A stretch of 20,695 bases of DNA from positions 1 to 20,695 of the forward strand of contig MU633878.1 of the NCBI GenBank assembly GCA_026770595.1. Reading direction: 5' to 3'. The DNA comes from Ochromonadaceae sp. CCMP2298. Its lineage: Eukaryota > Sar > Synurophyceae > Ochromonadales > Ochromonadaceae. Made by a program: the position numbers and the translations under genes. The notes beneath the pieces are model-generated. The model was not told the DNA's origin, did no database searches, and worked only from the letters and a program-made list of their open reading frames with translations. Shown here one piece after another: positions 2,774-15,175 of this stretch; the first letter of the stretch is position 1; each line of letters begins with the position of its first letter.

Positions 2774-6919
<4,146 letters not shown>

Positions 6920-7309: not shown

Positions 7310-9109
7310 ATGAGCGAATCAGAGCGGTCGCGGCTGCTGCCGGGCGGCTCTTCTGCCGAAGAGCTGCCTTTCCTGGCGCGACTGTTCTCCCGCCTGGTCT
7401 CTCCCGACACCGAGGACGACTCGGTCAGCTTGGGGGTGAAGAAGGTGGGTCTTGCGCTGACCGTGGTGGTATCGCTGTGGCTGCTCTCCTTCTTGCTGGT
7501 GATGGTGCAGATCATAGAGCACGAGACCATCGGGCCCCGGGACTTCGCTCTGTTCGCGCCCATGTGGGTGGGCTCGCTGCTGGGCCTGGTAACGGTCGTG
7601 ATGGTCTCCGTCAACGTGTGCAAGAGCAGCACCCTGGTCAGTCGAGAGAGGCGCCTCTTCATGCGGGCGCAGGGCACAGAGCGGCAGAGCGAGTTCATCG
7701 ACTACGAGAGCCTGCCCCTGATGCGCCGACTGCTCTGCTGGAACCTGGCCCTCGCCCTCTCCTTCCTGCTCATACTCATCACGCAGGTGCTCTTCAGCCT
7801 GTGGTTCATCAGCGCAGCTATCGGCGTGTGGCACGCATTGGTGCCGGTGCTGCTGCTGGCTAGCCTGTGCCTGCTGTACCTGTGCCTGATGGACGTGCTC
7901 TCAGCCATGTCCTGCGGAGTAGTGGTCCTCGTGCTGCTGCAGCTGGTGAGTAGGGAGAGGGGGAACAGTGGGGGGGAGGAGCATGTTGTAGATATTGCCA
8001 AGGCTTGTGGAGGAAGGGCTGCCTGCTGCCCGTTGCTTGTCCCACGATGCTGTTTCATGTTTACTCCCTGCTGTCCTCCATCGACTACTATCTACTCTAC
8101 CTACTGACCGCTGTCGACTGCTCTGCCATATACTATATGCTACCCGCCTTGTCCCCTGCTACCTGTCGACTATAAGTTTCACATGCCATAAACACACCCC
8201 ATGCCTGCGACCCACTAATCATAACGTATCGAACTTCCTCTGATCCCCTCATTCCTTTTCCCTCATTCCTTATCCCCTGTGCCCCCCTTCCAGTTCCTGT
8301 TCACGCTGAAGTGCAGCCGCCACATGCTGCTCACCTCCTGGACCCTAGCCACCTTGCCGCTCGACGTGGTGCTCCTCTACGCCTACGTGCATCTGGCCGC
8401 TGTGGTGCTGGCCGCGCTGCGGGGGCGCTACGACCTGAAGCCTGCGCAGAAGTGGTGCCTGGCTGCACACGCTGCCGCGCTGCTGCTGGCCACCCTCGCA
8501 GAGGCACTGACCGTCATGCAAGAGCACGCCGGCCTGTCAATATCCTCCACCCCAGCGGTGCTGTGGACGGTCGTGGTGACGCTGCTGGTGCTGTGCCTGC
8601 TGGTGGTGGTGAATGCAGAGGTGCGGGTGCTGGCGGTTAACAGGGGGTTCCTGGACCCGCTCCCGCTGTCCCGCACCAAGGACGGCTGGGCGCCCACCCC
8701 GGGGGGCGGGAAGGTCTACTTCCTGCTGCTGGGCGGCGTGGCACTGTGTCTGCCCAGTCCCGCTACCGCGAGTCACTCTGCTACGAATGCGGACCTCGTG
8801 CCCCCCTCCAGCCACTCCCGAGGCGGCAAAGGGGTCACATTCAGTGATCGAGCAAGGGCTGGGTCGGGGGCACTCGCGCCAATAGGGGCTGTAGGGGCCG
8901 TAGGGGCCGTGACCACTGCTGGGAGCAGAGCAGACGTCCCTCCAATCGACTTCCAGCAGGCGGGCGGGTCTAGCATCAGCAGCGCACCTGGCTCCTCAGC
9001 AGGCAAGGCCAACACATCCTCTGCCCCCGCCACTGCCGCAGACTCCATGTACGGCTCCCTGTCCACCCACGAGTCAGGCATCGAGATGCTGGGGCCCAGC
9101 GCCGTGTAA
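7310..9109 (+). CDS. polytopic membrane protein, TMEM185-like (two exons)
   Basis: The coding sequence joins 7310-7945 to 8294-9109 and gives 483 residues. Around eight hydrophobic segments follow a short polar N-terminus, then a Ser/Ala/Gly-rich tail of roughly 170 residues. The stretch ALFAPMWVGSLLGLV and the paired-helix layout recall the TMEM185 (transmembrane Fragile-X-F) family, but this is a weak match made by eye. The start at 7310 is preferred: it opens MSESERSRLLPGG, where ERSRLL fits an acidic dileucine sorting signal, whereas the 29 extra residues from 7223 look like translated leader. A vacuolar or endosomal location is therefore possible. The tail ends immediately before the antenna-gene inverted repeat. 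Confidence 0.8.
7946..8293 (+). other. spliceosomal intron, phase 0
   Basis: This 348-nt intron has a strong donor (CTG|GTGAGTAGG) and acceptor (CCCCTTCCAG|TTC) and lies between codons. Splicing joins two hydrophobic segments (VVLVLLQL and FLFTLKC) in frame. The unspliced frame stops at 8107 after non-hydrophobic sequence. The second half is AT-richer and pyrimidine-rich. Confidence 0.9.
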
Positions 9110-9570
9110 ACGTGCGTGATATGTGTGCAGAGCGTGTGGGGAGCGTGTGGGGAGTGTATGGAGAGTGTGTTTGCGGGTCGTGCGGACACACAGCAAGTAG
9201 GGGTACAGCAAGTAGGGGTATTGCGCACAAGTACATTCTCTTACTTTCCCCAAGTTTGGTATCGGCATTGGCAACCCTTTTGTTTGTATATGATGTATAT
9301 ATAACCAAACACAGTCAAATTCTGCATTGCATTGCTGTGCCAGTTTGCAAACCCGAAGGCAATAATGCTTTGAAAGAAAATAGTAGAGTGATCGCTGTGC
9401 TGGTTTAAATCATTACAAGCGGGTCAAAGTGGATGGGTTGTAGGGGTTGTATGACCAGTAATAGATCTTAGATGCGGATACGTAGCAGAAATCCTTGTTA
9501 GGTGGTATCGCCGGTTGCCCAGCTTACGTGATGGTTGTGTGGTGATGGAAGAGTGCTGGAGACCAACACT
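9110..9570. other. convergent spacer within left inverted-repeat arm
   Basis: Almost all of this spacer, from about 9123, belongs to the left arm of the antenna-gene inverted repeat. Its reverse complement matches the sequence downstream of FCP-2. It includes a 15-bp tandem duplication of ACAGCAAGTAGGGGT at 9190-9219 that is single-copy in the right arm. No gene was seen. It must hold the 3' ends of both the TMEM185-like gene and FCP-1. Confidence 0.7.
9190..9219 (+). repeat. 15-bp tandem duplication
   Basis: Two adjacent perfect copies of ACAGCAAGTAGGGGT. The matching place in the right arm of the inverted repeat has one copy, so the duplication arose after the arms separated, or one copy was lost from the right arm. 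Confidence 0.9.
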
Positions 9571-10146
9571 TTAGTTGAAGGCAACGGGGGCACCGAGCAG
9601 GGAGTTGATGATGTAGGGGTTGTTGTCCAGCTTCTCGTGGATCATCAGGGCCAGGATGCCCATCTGGGCGGCGCGGCCGTTGTTCAGCTCGACGGCCTTG
9701 CGGCGGTCCACGGTGTAGTCGGGGTACTCGGCCTCGCACTTGGCCTCGATGTCCTCCTTGACCTGGGCGAAGCCAAGCTCGATGGCACCGATGGTCAGGA
9801 AGGTGACGGCAAGGCCGGCGGTGGGGAGGGAGTCGAAGACGGCAAGGCCGGTCTTGACCTCGTTGGGGCCGAGGGGCACGCGAGCACCGGCGGTGGTCAC
9901 GATGTGGCCGAGGATGGCAAGCATGGAGATGCGGCCGTGCTTGTTCTCGACGGTGCGGAGGCGGTCGAAGCGCTCCTGGTCAGCGTCGGCGAGGAGACCC
10001 AGAGGATCCCAGAAGCCGAGGGGGGCCTGGGCGCCGATGGCGGTCTCGAAGCCCATGCGCAGGGCAGAGGTGGTGGCGACCTTGCCCGCGGGGGCGAAGG
10101 CGGAGGCGCCGATGAAGGAAGCGAGGATGGCGATAGTGCGGAACAT
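9571..10146 (-). CDS. fucoxanthin-chlorophyll a/c binding protein, FCP-1 (type A)
   Basis: This 191-residue light-harvesting antenna protein is predicted to sit in the thylakoid membrane and bind chlorophyll a/c and fucoxanthin. Residues 1-17 form a signal peptide ending in ASAFAP, where cleavage before Phe exposes a plastid transit peptide. The first helix carries ENKHGRISM (Glu67, His70, Arg72) and the third ELNNGRAAQMG (Glu143, Asn146, Arg148); these are the chlorophyll-binding and ion-pair residues of the LHC fold. GAQAPLGFWDPLGLL is typical of Lhcf-type antenna proteins. The A-type signatures are MFRT, GASAF and YPDYTVDRRKAVELNN. The loop after helix 1 is about six residues shorter than in its paralogues (VPLGPNEVK). 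It has no intron. It is head-to-head with FCP-2 on opposite arms of an inverted repeat. Confidence 0.96.
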   Translation of the reverse strand: MFRTIAILASFIGASAFAPAGKVATTSALRMGFETAIGAQAPLGFWDPLGLLADADQERFDRLRTVENKHGRISMLAILGHIVTTAGARVPLGPNEVKTGLAVFDSLPTAGLAVTFLTIGAIELGFAQVKEDIEAKCEAEYPDYTVDRRKAVELNNGRAAQMGILALMIHEKLDNNPYIINSLLGAPVAFN

Positions 10147-10286
10147 GATGTTATAAGCTTGTGTTGACGAAGATTATGCGGGAGAGCTGGAATTCCGCTG
10201 TTGGATGCAGCCCTCTATGGTGCACTTTTTGAGGGAAGGATCTCCTCAATTCATATTCCGCTCACAGAGAATGACGCAGTTTACTG

Positions 10287-10293
10287 TTTTATA
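10287..10293 (-). promoter_or_regulatory. candidate TATA box of FCP-1
   Basis: TATAAAA on the minus strand lies about 140 bp upstream of the FCP-1 start codon. It lies at the place in the inverted repeat that aligns with the TATA-like box of FCP-2, which is the main reason to believe it. Confidence 0.5.
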
Positions 10294-10415
10294 CAGATAA
10301 ACGCGCATATATCTGTGACAATCCTCCCCTATTGAGTTTCAATCTTCCTTAAGTTGAACTTTGGATCGCAACACTTGGCTATGTTCGCATGTATTTGCGT
10401 TTTTATCTGCATGAA

Positions 10416-10423
10416 TATATAAA
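10416..10423 (+). promoter_or_regulatory. candidate TATA box of FCP-2
   Basis: TATATAAA lies about 175 bp upstream of the FCP-2 start codon, followed by AACAGT-like sequence that also follows the box on the FCP-1 side. Its place in both arms supports a real core promoter element, but the long distance to the ATG means the leader must be about 140 nt. Confidence 0.5.
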
Positions 10424-10598
10424 CAGTGTCAATCTATGTGGGCAAACACTGATTGAGGGAGGATCCTCCCCCTTGTTCCCCAAAATCCAGGAGGCAACAG
10501 CATCCAAACAGCAATCCAACAGCAACAAGAGGGTCGCAATCCAACAGCGGAAATCCAGGTCTCACACATAATCTTCGTCAACACAAGCTTATAACATC

Positions 10599-11198
10599 AT
10601 GTTCCGCTCCATCGTTCTCATTGCCTCCTTCATCGGCGCCGCCGCCTTCGCCCCCGCGGGCAAGGTCGCCACCTCCTCCGTGCTGCGCATGGGCTTCGAG
10701 AGCGCCATCGGCGCCCAGGCCCCCCTCGGCTTCTGGGATCCTCTGGGTCTCCTCGTCGACGCCGACCAGGAGCGCTTCGACCGCCTCCGCACCGTCGAGA
10801 CCAAGCACGGCCGCATCTCCATGCTCGCCATCCTCGGCCACCTGGTGACCACAGCGGGTGTGCGCCTGCCCGGTGACATCGCCTATGGCGTGCCGTTCGC
10901 CTCCGTCAAGAACGGCCTGGCCGCCCTCGACACTATCCCCGCCGCCGGCATTGCCCAGGTCATCGGCTTCATCGGCCTGATCGAGCTTGGCTTCTCCGCC
11001 CGCAAGGACGACATCGAGGCTGCGCAGCTCAAGGCCTCCGGCTGGGACCAGGCCACCATCGACAAGAAGACCGCCATCGAGCTCAACAACGGCCGCGCCG
11101 CCCAGATGGGCATCCTGGCCCTCATGATCCACGAGAAGCTTGATGGCAACCCCTACATCATCAACTCCCTGCTCGGCGCCCCCGTGGCCTTCAACTAA
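10599..11198 (+). CDS. fucoxanthin-chlorophyll a/c binding protein, FCP-2 (type B)
   Basis: This 199-residue plastid antenna protein has the same architecture as FCP-1: signal peptide with a GAAAFAP cleavage region, helix 1 with ETKHGRISM (Glu67, His70, Arg72), and helix 3 with ELNNGRAAQMG (Glu151, Asn154, Arg156). The B-type signatures are MFRS, GAAAF and AQLKASGWDQATIDKKTAIELNN (the last shared closely with FCP-4). It keeps the full loop (PGDIAYGVPF) that FCP-1 lacks. It ends in PVAFN like FCP-1, whereas FCP-3 and FCP-4 end in VAFNQ, so its ends and flanks match FCP-1 while its middle matches FCP-4. It has no intron, and GC-rich codon use is extreme. Confidence 0.97.
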   Translation: MFRSIVLIASFIGAAAFAPAGKVATSSVLRMGFESAIGAQAPLGFWDPLGLLVDADQERFDRLRTVETKHGRISMLAILGHLVTTAGVRLPGDIAYGVPFASVKNGLAALDTIPAAGIAQVIGFIGLIELGFSARKDDIEAAQLKASGWDQATIDKKTAIELNNGRAAQMGILALMIHEKLDGNPYIINSLLGAPVAFN

Positions 11199-11739
11199 AG
11201 TGTTGGTCTCCAGCACTCTTCCCGTCACCACAAAACAATCACTATAAGCTGGGCAACCGGCACCCCTCACCTAACAAGGATTTCTGCTATGTATCCGCAT
11301 CTAAGATCTAATTACTGATCACCCCACCCCAACCCCCTATTCACTTTGACCCGCTTGTAATGATTTGAACCAGCACAGCGATCACTCTACTGTTTTCTTT
11401 TCAACGTAGTATTGCACAGCAATGCAGTGCGGAATTGACTGTGTTTGGTTATATACATCATCTACAAAAGAATGTACTTGTGCGCAATACCCCTACTTGC
11501 TGTGTGTCCGCACGACCCGCACGTCTCCACACATTCTCCATACACTCCCCACGCCATCCCCCACACTCTGCACACGCAATACAGAAGAAACGTCGAAGAG
11601 GCTTTTCAAAAAATTCTTCGTTTAACAAAGTTAGAGGAATGAAGAAGCAGCAAGATCTTATTCGGTTATGTGGGGAGGACTCTGGAGGCCCAGGTTATGT
11701 ATAGCATTTACGGAAGTGCCCGGAGGTGCGCCCTGCCGC
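11199..11739. other. convergent spacer, right arm end plus unique part
   Basis: Positions 11199-11575 belong to the right inverted-repeat arm and mirror the FCP-1 3' flank. Positions 11576-11739 are unique, A-rich at first (about 11580-11650), and show no gene. FCP-2 and FCP-3 both end toward this spacer. Confidence 0.65.
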
Positions 11740-12336
11740 TTACTGGTTGAAAGCGACGGGGTAGCCGAGCAGGGAGTTGATGATGTAGGGGTTTCCATCG
11801 AGCTTCTCGTGGATCATCAGGGCGAGAATGCCCATCTGGGCGGCGCGGCCGTTGTTGAGCTCGACAGCCTTGCGGCGGTCCACGGTGAGGTCGGGGTAGT
11901 CCGACTCGCACTTCTCCTCGATGTCCTCCTGCACGGAGCCGAAGCCCAGCTCCAGCACGCCAATGAAGGCGAAGATCTGCGCCAGGCCAGCAGCGGGGAT
12001 GGTGTCGAAGGCGGCAAGGCCGGCCTTCACGGAGGAGAAGGGCACTCCGAAGGCGATCTCGCCGGGCATGCGGAAGCCAGCGGTGTTCAGCATGTGGCCC
12101 AGGATGGCGAGCATGGAGATGCGGCCGTGTTTGATCTCGACGTAGCGCAGGCGGTCGAAGCGCTCCTGGTCGGCCTCCTTGAGGAGACCCAGAGGATCCC
12201 AGAAGCCGAGGGGGGCCTGGGCGCCGATGGCCTCCTCAAAGCCCATGCGCAGGGCAGAGGTGGTGGCGACCTTGCCCGCCGGGGCGAAGGCGGAGGCGCC
12301 GATGAAGGAAGCGAGGAGAACGATGGTGCGGAACAT
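11740..12336 (-). CDS. fucoxanthin-chlorophyll a/c binding protein, FCP-3 (type A)
   Basis: This 198-residue antenna protein has the signal and transit region MFRTIVLLASFIGASAFAP, helix 1 with EIKHGRISM and helix 3 with ELNNGRAAQMG (Glu149). The A-type block CESDYPDLTVDRRKAVELNN matches FCP-1. The frame continues upstream to 12429, but the start at 12336 is chosen because it aligns exactly with the other three proteins and opens the signal peptide; the extra 31 residues are polar leader. RLRYVEIKHGR is closer to the common Lhcf form than the TVENKHGR of the other copies, so this may be the least altered member. It is head-to-head with FCP-4 across 273 bp. It lies outside the inverted repeat and its flanks are unlike those of FCP-1. 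Confidence 0.97.
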   Translation of the reverse strand: MFRTIVLLASFIGASAFAPAGKVATTSALRMGFEEAIGAQAPLGFWDPLGLLKEADQERFDRLRYVEIKHGRISMLAILGHMLNTAGFRMPGEIAFGVPFSSVKAGLAAFDTIPAAGLAQIFAFIGVLELGFGSVQEDIEEKCESDYPDLTVDRRKAVELNNGRAAQMGILALMIHEKLDGNPYIINSLLGYPVAFNQ

Positions 12337-12609
12337 GGTCGGTTGAATTGGGTTGTGAGAAGGCACCGCAGATGGGGCAGAAGCGCGGAGTTCATGCCCC
12401 CAAAAGTTGATGCGGATCTTTTGTCCCAAAATCCAGCGTAACGCACGCCCGTTACGCCGGGACTTGAACTGTCCTGAACAAGATCCTGCCGGATCCTCGC
12501 TGCTCCTTCAACCCCTTGCTCATCGGCCCTCTGCCTGCAGGTTCGGAAGTTCGATGCAAGCCGTTGTTCTGCGATCGTCTTCCAAGCACAATCCCTAGTC
12601 CCTGCAAAG
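12337..12609. promoter_or_regulatory. divergent promoter of FCP-3 and FCP-4
   Basis: This 273-bp spacer is unrelated by eye to the FCP-1/FCP-2 promoter. It contains a perfect inverted repeat, GCGTAACG-cacgcc-CGTTACGC, at 12436-12457. No TATA box was seen. The compact size suggests shared control of the two genes. Confidence 0.55.
12436..12457. promoter_or_regulatory. 8-bp inverted repeat GCGTAACG/CGTTACGC
   Basis: Two perfect 8-bp arms are separated by 6 bp, between the FCP-3 and FCP-4 starts. A dyad of this size suits a dimeric transcription factor. The same 8-mer recurs at 19108-19115 in another divergent spacer, as part of the palindrome TTACGCGTAA. Confidence 0.45.
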
Positions 12610-13212
12610 ATGTTCCGCTCCATCGTTCTCCTCGCTTCATTCATCGGCGCCGCCGCCTTCGCCCCCGCGGGCAAGGTCGCCACCACCTCTGCCCTGCGCA
12701 TGGGCTTCGAGAACGCCATCGGCGCGCAGGCCCCCCTCGGCTTCTGGGATCCCCTCGGCATCCTCGCCGACGCCGACCAGGCCAAGTTCGACCGCCTGCG
12801 TACCGTGGAGAACAAGCACGGCCGCATCTCCATGCTCGCCATCCTCGGCCACATCGTGACCGCCGCCGGCGTCCGCTGCGGTGGCGACATCGCCCCCGGC
12901 CTCCCCTTCTCCCAGATGAAGGCTGGCCTCGCCGCCCTCGACACCATCCCCTCTGCTGGTCTGGCGCAGCTGATTGGCTTCATCGGCCTGATCGAGCTGG
13001 GCTTCGACTCCCGCAAGGAGGAGATCGAGGTGGCGCAGCTCAAGGCCTCCAAGTGGGACCAGAAGACCATCGACAAGAAGACCGCCATCGAGCTCAACAA
13101 CGGCCGCGCCGCGCAGATGGGCATCCTCGCCCTCATGGTTCACGAGAAGCTGGACAACAACCCTTACATCCTCAACGCTATGCTGGGCGCACCCGTGGCC
13201 TTCAACCAGTAA
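12610..13212 (+). CDS. fucoxanthin-chlorophyll a/c binding protein, FCP-4 (type B)
   Basis: This 200-residue antenna protein opens MFRSIVLLASFIGAAAFAP, with helix 1 ENKHGRISM (Glu67, His70, Arg72) and helix 3 ELNNGRAAQMG (Glu151, Asn154, Arg156). The block AQLKASKWDQKTIDKK matches FCP-2 and defines type B. Small differences from FCP-2 include CGGDIAPGLPF in the loop and PYILNAMLG near the C-terminus. The stop codon context AACCAGTAAGC is repeated just downstream. The start aligns with all paralogues. It has no intron. It is head-to-head with FCP-3. Confidence 0.97.
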   Translation: MFRSIVLLASFIGAAAFAPAGKVATTSALRMGFENAIGAQAPLGFWDPLGILADADQAKFDRLRTVENKHGRISMLAILGHIVTAAGVRCGGDIAPGLPFSQMKAGLAALDTIPSAGLAQLIGFIGLIELGFDSRKEEIEVAQLKASKWDQKTIDKKTAIELNNGRAAQMGILALMVHEKLDNNPYILNAMLGAPVAFNQ

Positions 13213-13245: not shown

Positions 13246-13534
13246 AATGCCCCTGAGCCCTGAGACATTGAGTCTGTGTTCTGCTCGCCGAAGCAGTTAA
13301 GCTGGGTCCCCTAGCGCCTAATCTTGGATTTTTGCTGTAGATCCTACCAATTTTAAGACCAGCCACTGGTCAACCCATTTGTAACATAAGTAGCCCGAGT
13401 GGCAAAAAGCAAGTGCAGATTTTTTGTACAAAGTTTAAGCACCGTGTATACGAAACACTCTAGGGGTGTAAATACGTAATCCTAGCATTCGATTCTACTG
13501 TACCATGCTACTGTGGTATGCTACTGTGCTGCTG
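13213..13534. other. convergent spacer
   Basis: This spacer lies between the 3' ends of FCP-4 and the CinA-like fusion. Apart from the AGTAAGC repeats at its left edge and GCTACTGTG-like repeats near 13500-13530, it is unremarkable AT-richer sequence. No gene or RNA was recognised. Confidence 0.6.
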
Positions 13535-15175
13535 CTACTTCTGCGCTCTCTCACGCAGCTGCGTGGAGGACAGGTCTAGTCGGAACTGCCCCTCGCTCAG
13601 GCCCGTGAACAGGTCCAGCACCTCCTGGGGCAGCGTGTCGCACGTAGGGGTGACGGTCGTATTGCCCGCCTGCGAGAGCGGCGCGGTCTGCAGGATGGAC
13701 TGGCAGGTCTCGAAGGTGGTCTGCCCAGCAGCAGTCACCACTCTTCCGCCCACAGTGAAGGAGCATTTGTTGGCCGCGATGCCCATCAGCGCAGCCACCA
13801 TGTTCAGCGCACGTCGGTCCGAGCCAGCGGCAATCACCTGGCTGGAGTTTTTGTCTGCGTAGTACTTGGTGTCCAGCAGGCGCACCATGGTGTCAGCGCC
13901 CATGAGGAAGGTGCAGCCGGCGAAGATGCGCGCCTTCTTGGCGAACAAAGGCGCAGAGGTCACGCTCACCGCAAAGTTCCTCACGTGCATCTGGTCGAAC
14001 AAAGGGTTCTCCGAGGCGTCGAACTGCCTCAGGCGGCGCTCCACCTCCTCCCGGGCGATGGGCGGCTTGTCTGCGTTGAGGGCTGACATCTCGAACACCA
14101 CCAGGGGGGGTCGGAAGGGCTCGCTGCCGCAGTGCGCCGCCTCCAGGCGCTGCACCTCTGCACGCACTAGCGCCAGGTGTCCCTCGTGCAGGGGGTTAAA
14201 CGAACCGGGGTAGACCAGGCTGCCGGGGGGCACCACCACGTCCTCGAAGTGCGCGAACTCCTCTGCCAGACCCCCTGTACCCCCTGTGCCCCCTGCAACC
14301 CCTGTGCCCCCTGTGCCACTCTTCTTTACGAACAGCACGTGCGCCGCCCTCGCCGCATACACGTTGTCCAGCACGTCGCCGCTAAGACGCTGCTGCACGT
14401 ACACCGTTTCTGCCTCCTTAGACGCCGCAGAGGCGGAGGCAGAGGCGGGGGGGAGGGACCCTGTGGTGGCGTTCTTCGCGAGCATGGCGGCTGCGGGCAG
14501 GGGCAGGCCCACGTGCGTAGCGAGAGCCTCCAAGAGCAGCTGCGAGCATGCAGCGTCCTCGCCTACGCGGTCCCGCTTTCCCTTCTCCAGCTGGACCGAG
14601 TAGGTGCTGCAGCCGTCACCGGAGCACACCCCGACGTGGGCGCGGTGGGGGCCCCTCTTCGGCTGAGCGGACACCAGCGCCGCCGTGCAGGACAGACCCA
14701 GCACTGGGCCCCTCGCTGCGATGGCTGCTATGTTGTGCTTGTTCTCCTGGAGCAGCAGCGCGCAGCTGGATCTGTAGGAGGCGAAGGCGATGGCCATGGC
14801 AGTCTCCTCGCTGCAGGAGGTGCCGTCCGCGCCCCCGCCGTGCTGCAGCATGAACGACGCCAGAGCGGAACGTGCATAGGGAACCTGAGCGTCCAACACG
14901 CACGCAGAGGCCCCAGGCACTGTGAGCAGCCACTGCAGCACTCCTACGCCGCCGCCCGTCACGTGCACGGAGAAGGCAGGCGCGGGCTGCAGAGCGTAGA
15001 TGTCCGTGATGAGCTGCTGCAGGTCCAAGGGTGACCCGCTGCTGCGGGGCGGAGTAGCAGTAGTGCTGAAGGCAGACATTGGCAGCGATTGGAGCGCGGT
15101 AAGTGGCCGTGTGTAGTATGACTTGCTCGGGTTCAAGGACAGGAAGCACGCTACTGGCTTGATCACTCGCATCAC
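13535..15175 (-). CDS. CinA-like domain fused to a nicotinate-nucleotide-adenylyltransferase-like domain
   Basis: This 546-residue, two-domain protein resembles a conserved plant and algal family (the Arabidopsis At2g01220 type). Residues about 52-230 resemble the CinA C-terminal (NMN amidase) fold, with HVTGGGVGVLQWLLTVPGAS at 71-90. Residues about 320-546 are a nucleotidylyltransferase with PGSFNPLHEGH (HxGH at 330-333) and SSTQLR at 536-541, the two nucleotide-binding motifs of NMN/NaMN adenylyltransferases. ELSAL-like and ADKPPI motifs (SALNADKPPI) support the family. In the CinA part the catalytic Ser of AESCTGG is replaced and the Lys after the Tyr is absent (PYARSAL), so amidase activity is doubtful. 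Residues 1-32 are basic and hydrophobic and may target a mitochondrion; Met33 is an alternative start. A Gly/Thr linker lies at about 296-312. A role in NAD metabolism is inference. Confidence 0.9.
   Translation of the reverse strand: MMRVIKPVACFLSLNPSKSYYTRPLTALQSLPMSAFSTTATPPRSSGSPLDLQQLITDIYALQPAPAFSVHVTGGGVGVLQWLLTVPGASACVLDAQVPYARSALASFMLQHGGGADGTSCSEETAMAIAFASYRSSCALLLQENKHNIAAIAARGPVLGLSCTAALVSAQPKRGPHRAHVGVCSGDGCSTYSVQLEKGKRDRVGEDAACSQLLLEALATHVGLPLPAAAMLAKNATTGSLPPASASASAASKEAETVYVQQRLSGDVLDNVYAARAAHVLFVKKSGTGGTGVAGGTGGTGGLAEEFAHFEDVVVPPGSLVYPGSFNPLHEGHLALVRAEVQRLEAAHCGSEPFRPPLVVFEMSALNADKPPIAREEVERRLRQFDASENPLFDQMHVRNFAVSVTSAPLFAKKARIFAGCTFLMGADTMVRLLDTKYYADKNSSQVIAAGSDRRALNMVAALMGIAANKCSFTVGGRVVTAAGQTTFETCQSILQTAPLSQAGNTTVTPTCDTLPQEVLDLFTGLSEGQFRLDLSSTQLRERAQK
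14270..14325. repeat. in-gene minisatellite encoding a Gly/Thr linker
   Basis: Tandem units close to CCCCCTGTG on the plus strand encode Gly-Gly-Thr repeats on the coding strand, at the junction between the CinA-like and adenylyltransferase domains. The position suits a flexible linker of variable length. Confidence 0.7.

Follow-up and report, generated by a model that had tools for sequence, protein, structure and literature searches.

The antenna (light-harvesting) genes FCP-1 and FCP-2 of a golden-brown alga are head-to-head paralogues within an inverted repeat in the 20,695-nucleotide stretch of DNA analysed here (the window). The middles of their coding sequences belong to different types, that of FCP-1 being old, yet their non-coding 3' flanks are 90% identical. 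We consider it probable that the two are different genes whose starts, leaders and 3' flanks have been converted between the arms, while the promoters and middles are still different.

Layout of the inverted repeat and its surroundings

Four FCP genes were present in the window, each as a single open reading frame, and they were arranged as two divergent pairs (Table 1). All four matched PF00504 (chlorophyll a/b-a/c binding proteins), with 97.6-103.3 bits against a curated cut-off of 22.3. The closest solved relative of FCP-2 by sequence was FCP17 of entry 9ygv (E 1.2e-57).

Table 1. Coordinates in the window of the FCP-1/FCP-2 repeat, its parts and the neighbouring FCP genes
Feature	Position	Strand	Remarks
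Left arm	9123..10372	-	strongly alike part 9123-10216
FCP-1 3' flank	9123..9570	-	448 bp, similar to the FCP-2 3' flank
FCP-1	9571..10146	-	191 aa, fucoxanthin-chlorophyll-type antenna protein, PF00504 9.6e-28; old-type middle, loop 6 residues shorter
Exact 41-base block across the FCP-1 start codon	10138..10178	-	-32 to +9
FCP-1 core promoter region	10233..10318	-	TATA-like TATAAAAC at 10286-10293, read by eye
Unique centre	10319..10384	.	66 bp, outside the local promoter alignment
Right arm	10373..11575	+	strongly alike part 10528-11575
FCP-2 core promoter region	10385..10471	+	TATA-like TATATAAA at 10416-10423, read by eye
Exact 41-base block across the FCP-2 start codon	10567..10607	+	-32 to +9
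FCP-2	10599..11198	+	199 aa, antenna protein, PF00504 2.5e-29; middle unlike that of FCP-1
FCP-2 3' flank	11199..11575	+	377 bp, similar to the FCP-1 3' flank
FCP-3	11740..12336	-	neighbour, comparison gene, PF00504
FCP-4	12610..13212	+	neighbour, comparison gene, PF00504; 3' UTR faintly similar to those of FCP-1 and FCP-2

The strongly alike blocks of the two arms aligned in BLAST with an E value of 6.5e-273, and the outer ends of the repeat agreed with those given by an earlier, sequence-only reading of this DNA. That reading had described a near-perfect palindrome, which did not hold. Over the whole arms, 934 of 1127 aligned bases were identical (82.9%), which left 193 mismatches, and there were 199 gap columns. 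Identity was lower still in the coding middle and the inner promoter (see below), and the strong blocks lay 311 bp apart. The longest exact run was 53 bases. With this degree of mismatch, gapping and separation, the concern that the palindrome should be unstable is weaker than had been stated. The core promoters aligned weakly but beyond chance, so only about 66 bp at the centre was unique, near the earlier figure of about 80 bp. A 15-base unit, CAGCAAGTAGGGGTA, occurred as two tandem copies in the left arm (9191-9220) and as one copy in the right arm, a difference that represents a small gain or loss after the arms were last alike. Transcription of FCP-1 and FCP-2 runs outward, which gives both mRNAs the shared parts in one sense, so that these messages would not pair with each other. 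Double-stranded RNA would need read-through from the converging neighbours, the open reading frame at 8279-9109 and FCP-3.

Elsewhere in the window, a 1381-codon open frame on the minus strand (2774-6919), very rich in Glu/Ala/Val repeats, is a candidate gene. Adjoining FCP-4, a CinA/nucleotidyltransferase-like (CinA/NMNAT-like) protein is encoded on the minus strand at 13535-15175; it had no Pfam match at 0.001, and its relatives, itself aside, reached at most 46-47% identity. Of 21 stretches of viral contigs that matched a pattern, none encoded a relative. In 1-kb steps, the GC content was 0.54-0.68 over most of the window. This exceeds the value of 53.4% given for the CCMP2298 draft genome in the excerpted genome report, which puts the draft at 61.1 Mb, its 12,764 scaffolds having a half-length of 7.5 kb (PMC9756366).

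Our genome searches covered 11.25 Mb in 724 contigs, a partial draft in which the window is contig C123. They returned 21 FCP matches on 14 contigs, all of these contigs being at least 10,001 bases long. No FCP pair was seen on the other 13 of these contigs of the partial genome, and the matches there looked like one gene or its exon pieces. One such gene, at 1492-2118 on contig C370 (L006), had a front end in common with the FCP genes of the window and a middle 29-41% identical to those of the other five genes compared. Another, at 1390-2133 on contig C477 (L020), also shared the front end; its middle was strongly different, and it appeared to hold one in-frame intron. In other algae, the longest contig was 5405 for both of the FCP proteins P0006 and P0008 and 1597 for both P0013 and P0014, a hint of close FCP pairs there.

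Similar ends and different middles

The arm alignment was divided into segments whose borders were chosen after the alignment had been seen. On these borders, identity was 60% (68/113) in the inner spacer with the core promoter, the least alike segment, 83% (59/71) in the leader from -71 to -1, 92% (239/261 bases) in codons 1-87, 66% (137/207 bases) in the coding middle, 94% (101/108 bases) in the last 36 codons, and 90% (330/367, with 91 gap columns) in the 3' flank. The 3' flank differed in identity from both the coding middle (P 7.0e-12) and the promoter (P 7.9e-12). The shared leaders of the sequence-only reading were borne out by the exact 41-base blocks across the start codons. A 26-base leader core, with up to three mismatches allowed, was found, among the best candidates scored, at only two places in the partial genome, both of them in this pair. 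The shared TATA-like boxes and promoters stood in part: the core promoters scored 63, whereas none of 2000 dinucleotide shuffles exceeded 45, which is a likeness beyond chance but a weak one. The proposal that the symmetry was selected because it gives both genes the same promoter is poorly supported, since the inner promoter was the least alike part, although alike beyond chance.

The 3' flanks bore out the claim of more than 350 bp of shared sequence. Local alignment of the 448-bp and 377-bp flanks gave 334 identical bases out of 366, with a score of 463; the highest score from 500 shuffles was 45, and that from 2000 dinucleotide shuffles was 53. A comparison of the arms with the flanks of FCP-3 and FCP-4 had been named as the refutation test for the repeat. 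When it was run, the five other pairs of 3' flanks scored 19-43. In the partial genome, each flank had its partner as sole match among the best candidates scored. The FCP-3 3' flank (164 bp tested) did not match those of FCP-1 or FCP-2, nor did the FCP-4 3' flank apart from a faint 3' UTR block, and the 5' flanks of FCP-3 and FCP-4 did not match those of FCP-1 or FCP-2. The faint block comprised 62/80 identical bases between FCP-2 and FCP-4 (score 43, attained by none of 2000 shuffles); the corresponding FCP-1/FCP-4 score of 38 was reached by 9 of 2000. Fourteen comparisons with the flanks of the C370 and C477 genes gave no match to any tested, each score being reached by at least 16 of 300 shuffles. 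A dispersed or transposon-like origin of the flank was rejected, as the flank, leader core and spacer matched nothing else in the partial genome among the best candidates scored.

In self-comparison, the likeness of FCP-3 and FCP-4 was confined to their coding parts, so that FCP-1/FCP-2 is indeed the only symmetrical pair in the window, as had been noted. The 273-bp spacer between FCP-3 and FCP-4 (12337-12609) showed no flank symmetry. Since these two genes are also divergent and have no shared flank, inverted order alone is insufficient to produce one. The motif TTGTAA occurred in three 3' UTRs, at 9413-9418 (FCP-1), 11355-11360 (FCP-2) and 13379-13384 (FCP-4), each time inside the stretch that these genes have in common. 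We presume that TTGTAA in FCP 3' UTRs may be a poly(A) signal.

The middle of FCP-1 lacked six loop residues, a gap common to 36 of the 184 collected proteins, of which 33 were left once likely same-species rows were dropped. Seven rows (P0121, P0122, P0123, P0002, P0019, P0150 and P0147) were left out of the orthologue counts and trees. In a tree of the middles of 51 proteins, FCP-1 grouped with 20 F1-type (short-loop) proteins (SH-aLRT 98). Sisterhood of FCP-1 and FCP-2 was rejected (p 4.7e-6), as was a single clade of the six FCP genes of the genome (p 8.8e-34). Identities pointed the same way: middles of the six genes were 29-76% identical as proteins, and that of FCP-1 was 29-58% identical to its five paralogues compared with a median of 77% (60-89) to the 33 F1-type proteins. 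The middles being of different types, one recent duplication is contradicted, and the earlier description of the palindrome as recent fails for the arm as a whole.

We take the FCP front end to hold the plastid-targeting peptide and the first pigment-binding helix. Its protein identity among the six genes was 84-91%, and the FCP-1 N-terminal part was 88-91% identical to its five paralogues compared with a median of 75% (54-91) to the 33 F1-type proteins. The N-terminal tree, built on 81 columns and with most small forks weak, placed the six genes in one set of 14 rows, mixed with close relatives (SH-aLRT 96). Neither a six-gene clade (p 0.35) nor FCP-1 with FCP-2 (p 0.79) was rejected; FCP-1 with the F1-type proteins was borderline and not rejected at 5% (p 0.059). 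Synonymous codons were compared at shared residues, and chance sharing was estimated by permuting the codons of each amino acid inside each segment, so that local codon usage was preserved. Excess sharing was found at P<0.05 in 15 of 15 pairs among the six genes over the first 81 codons, in 2 of 15 in the middle and in none of 15 in the C-end; pooled codon usage gave 15/15, 1/15 and 2/15, respectively. Sharing of the front end is a matter of the family, since two of the six, the C370 and C477 genes, are located outside the window's contig. Sharing of the leader and 3' flank was confined to FCP-1/FCP-2 among the genes tested.

Probable conversion of the ends and its alternatives

Gene conversion, one of three options raised in the sequence-only reading, fitted these observations best, and for parts of each arm; it did not fit the whole arm. 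In this simplest account the conversion would be ectopic: one copy would have served as the repair template for a break in the other, and the same process may act family-wide at the front end. Selection would presumably eliminate copies that run into the middle, since it is the middle that gives each protein its identity; copied sequence may be selected against in the promoter as well. The 3' flank was perhaps copied from FCP-2 to FCP-1, a direction suggested by the faint 3' UTR copy at FCP-4, whose middle is nearest to that of FCP-2 among the six genes. The expected effect is that both messages would end alike without tying the two genes to the same expression. The absence of excess codon sharing in the C-end (0/15) is a point against this explanation, as it gives no sign of the 3' tract extending into the coding part. 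A GENECONV-like run test on four genes gave weak signals, the smallest permutation P being 0.0096, uncorrected for six pairs. Constraint on the 3' UTR or leader could also keep parts alike without conversion.

Transcript mosaics were considered as direct proof of conversion and set aside. The middles of the MMETSP proteins P0121, P0122, P0123, P0002 and P0019 were identical to those of genes of the genome, with the ends exchanged, and P0150, a transcript protein of CCMP2298 (Ochromonadaceae sp., taxid 483371), had a middle identical to that of FCP-3, again with exchanged ends. Middles that are identical point to a single species, and chimeras, which these mosaics likely are, can arise when such genes are assembled from short reads. 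The window probably comes from CCMP2298 or a strain close to it.

The outcome might also be attributed to an inverted duplication that copied FCP-2 with its promoter and flanks into the left arm, the middle of that copy being overwritten afterwards from an F1-type gene located elsewhere. This history would account for likeness along the whole arm, promoter included, and for the nearly equal identities of codons 1-87 and the 3' flank, and would require a single overwritten tract where conversion of the ends requires two. However, it does not predict a promoter so much more diverged than the flank, unless promoters change faster, and it too needs a copying event. No F1-type donor besides FCP-1 was identified in the partial genome, where not every match was read through. 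Taken together, we regard it as possible but unlikely. Had a single antenna gene simply been duplicated in inverted orientation in recent times, the 3' flank and the 41 exact bases at the start codon would be explained, but this history founders on the middles, which are of different types and do not group as sisters, and is extremely improbable.

Function alone, through a common message end and translation start, is very unlikely to have kept the flanks and leader alike without copying. The faint 3' UTR version kept by FCP-4, and the TTGTAA motif in all three genes, would be in line with it; about 400 bp at 90% is nevertheless long for a processing signal, and FCP-3 and the C370 and C477 genes do without the shared flank. 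In a draft of 724 contigs, an erroneous joining or doubling of the arms during assembly is a concern, but the mismatches and gap columns between the arms imply that neither is a copy of the other. In addition, the transcript-derived P0121 was 99% identical to FCP-1, and P0002 carried the FCP-2 middle at 100%, which supports both middles and not their adjacency. We consider such an error highly improbable.

The FCP-1/FCP-2 pair offers a compact example of homogenising copying and functional divergence that are apparently both at work on the same two genes, segment by segment. Whole-gene trees of FCP families can mislead, because the front end and the middle tell different histories. A broader and rather doubtful idea is that the antenna family is a cassette system, in which the front module (plastid signal and first helix) is constant and would be repeatedly overwritten across dispersed genes. 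The inverted pair would in addition retain the same leader and 3' end, and changes to the middle alone, with the ends staying constant, would give rise to new antenna proteins. If the pattern is confirmed in relatives, it becomes possible to ask directly whether antenna proteins diversify through changes in the loop and second helix while their ends stay conserved.

Comparison with known systems

Our literature search found no report linking fucoxanthin chlorophyll genes, an inverted repeat and gene conversion, and none of gene conversion in chrysophyte light-harvesting complex genes or in inverted cab genes. Ectopic conversion of palindromic pairs, however, is already known from the Hsp70 and Amy genes of Drosophila. 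The part of a Drosophila review at hand describes mirror-image pairs as prone to conversion: break repair templated by the partner homogenises them, and crossing over gives harmful rearrangements (PMC3924832).

Concerted evolution or gene conversion has been proposed for the LHC/FCP families of two chlorophyll c algae, Ectocarpus (PMC3008699) and Symbiodinium (PMC4351107), which in this respect resemble the FCP pair. The excerpts of both reports deal with clusters or polyprotein units, and not with an inverted pair that has shared flanks and distinct middles. The Drosophila Hsp70Aa/Ab and Hsp70Ba/Bb genes are likewise mirror-image paralogues, and the same part of the review ascribes their homogenisation to ectopic gene conversion favoured by the mirror order (PMC3924832). 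There, paralogues are closer within a species than orthologues are; in FCP-1/FCP-2 this applies to the front end only, and the middle shows the opposite. The palindromic amylase pairs Amy-p/Amy-d and Amy3/Amy4 (D. kikkawai) are also described there as mirror-image genes in concerted evolution (PMC3924832). In Amy3/Amy4, non-coding sequence is alike too, as in FCP-1/FCP-2. In Amy-p/Amy-d, by contrast, the coding sequence is homogenised and the flanks evolve independently, whereas the 3' flank of the FCP pair is among its most alike parts and the middle among its least. In the excerpted account of the hsp70 cluster of Stratiomys singularior, two copies have 3' UTR conversion tracts that are at least 300 bp long, which resembles the FCP pair, but the coding sequence is homogenised and the 3' UTRs are mostly divergent, unlike in FCP-1/FCP-2 (PMC3071340). 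Given this precedent for converted 3' UTRs, the variant here is that similar flanks occur together with a coding middle that differs.
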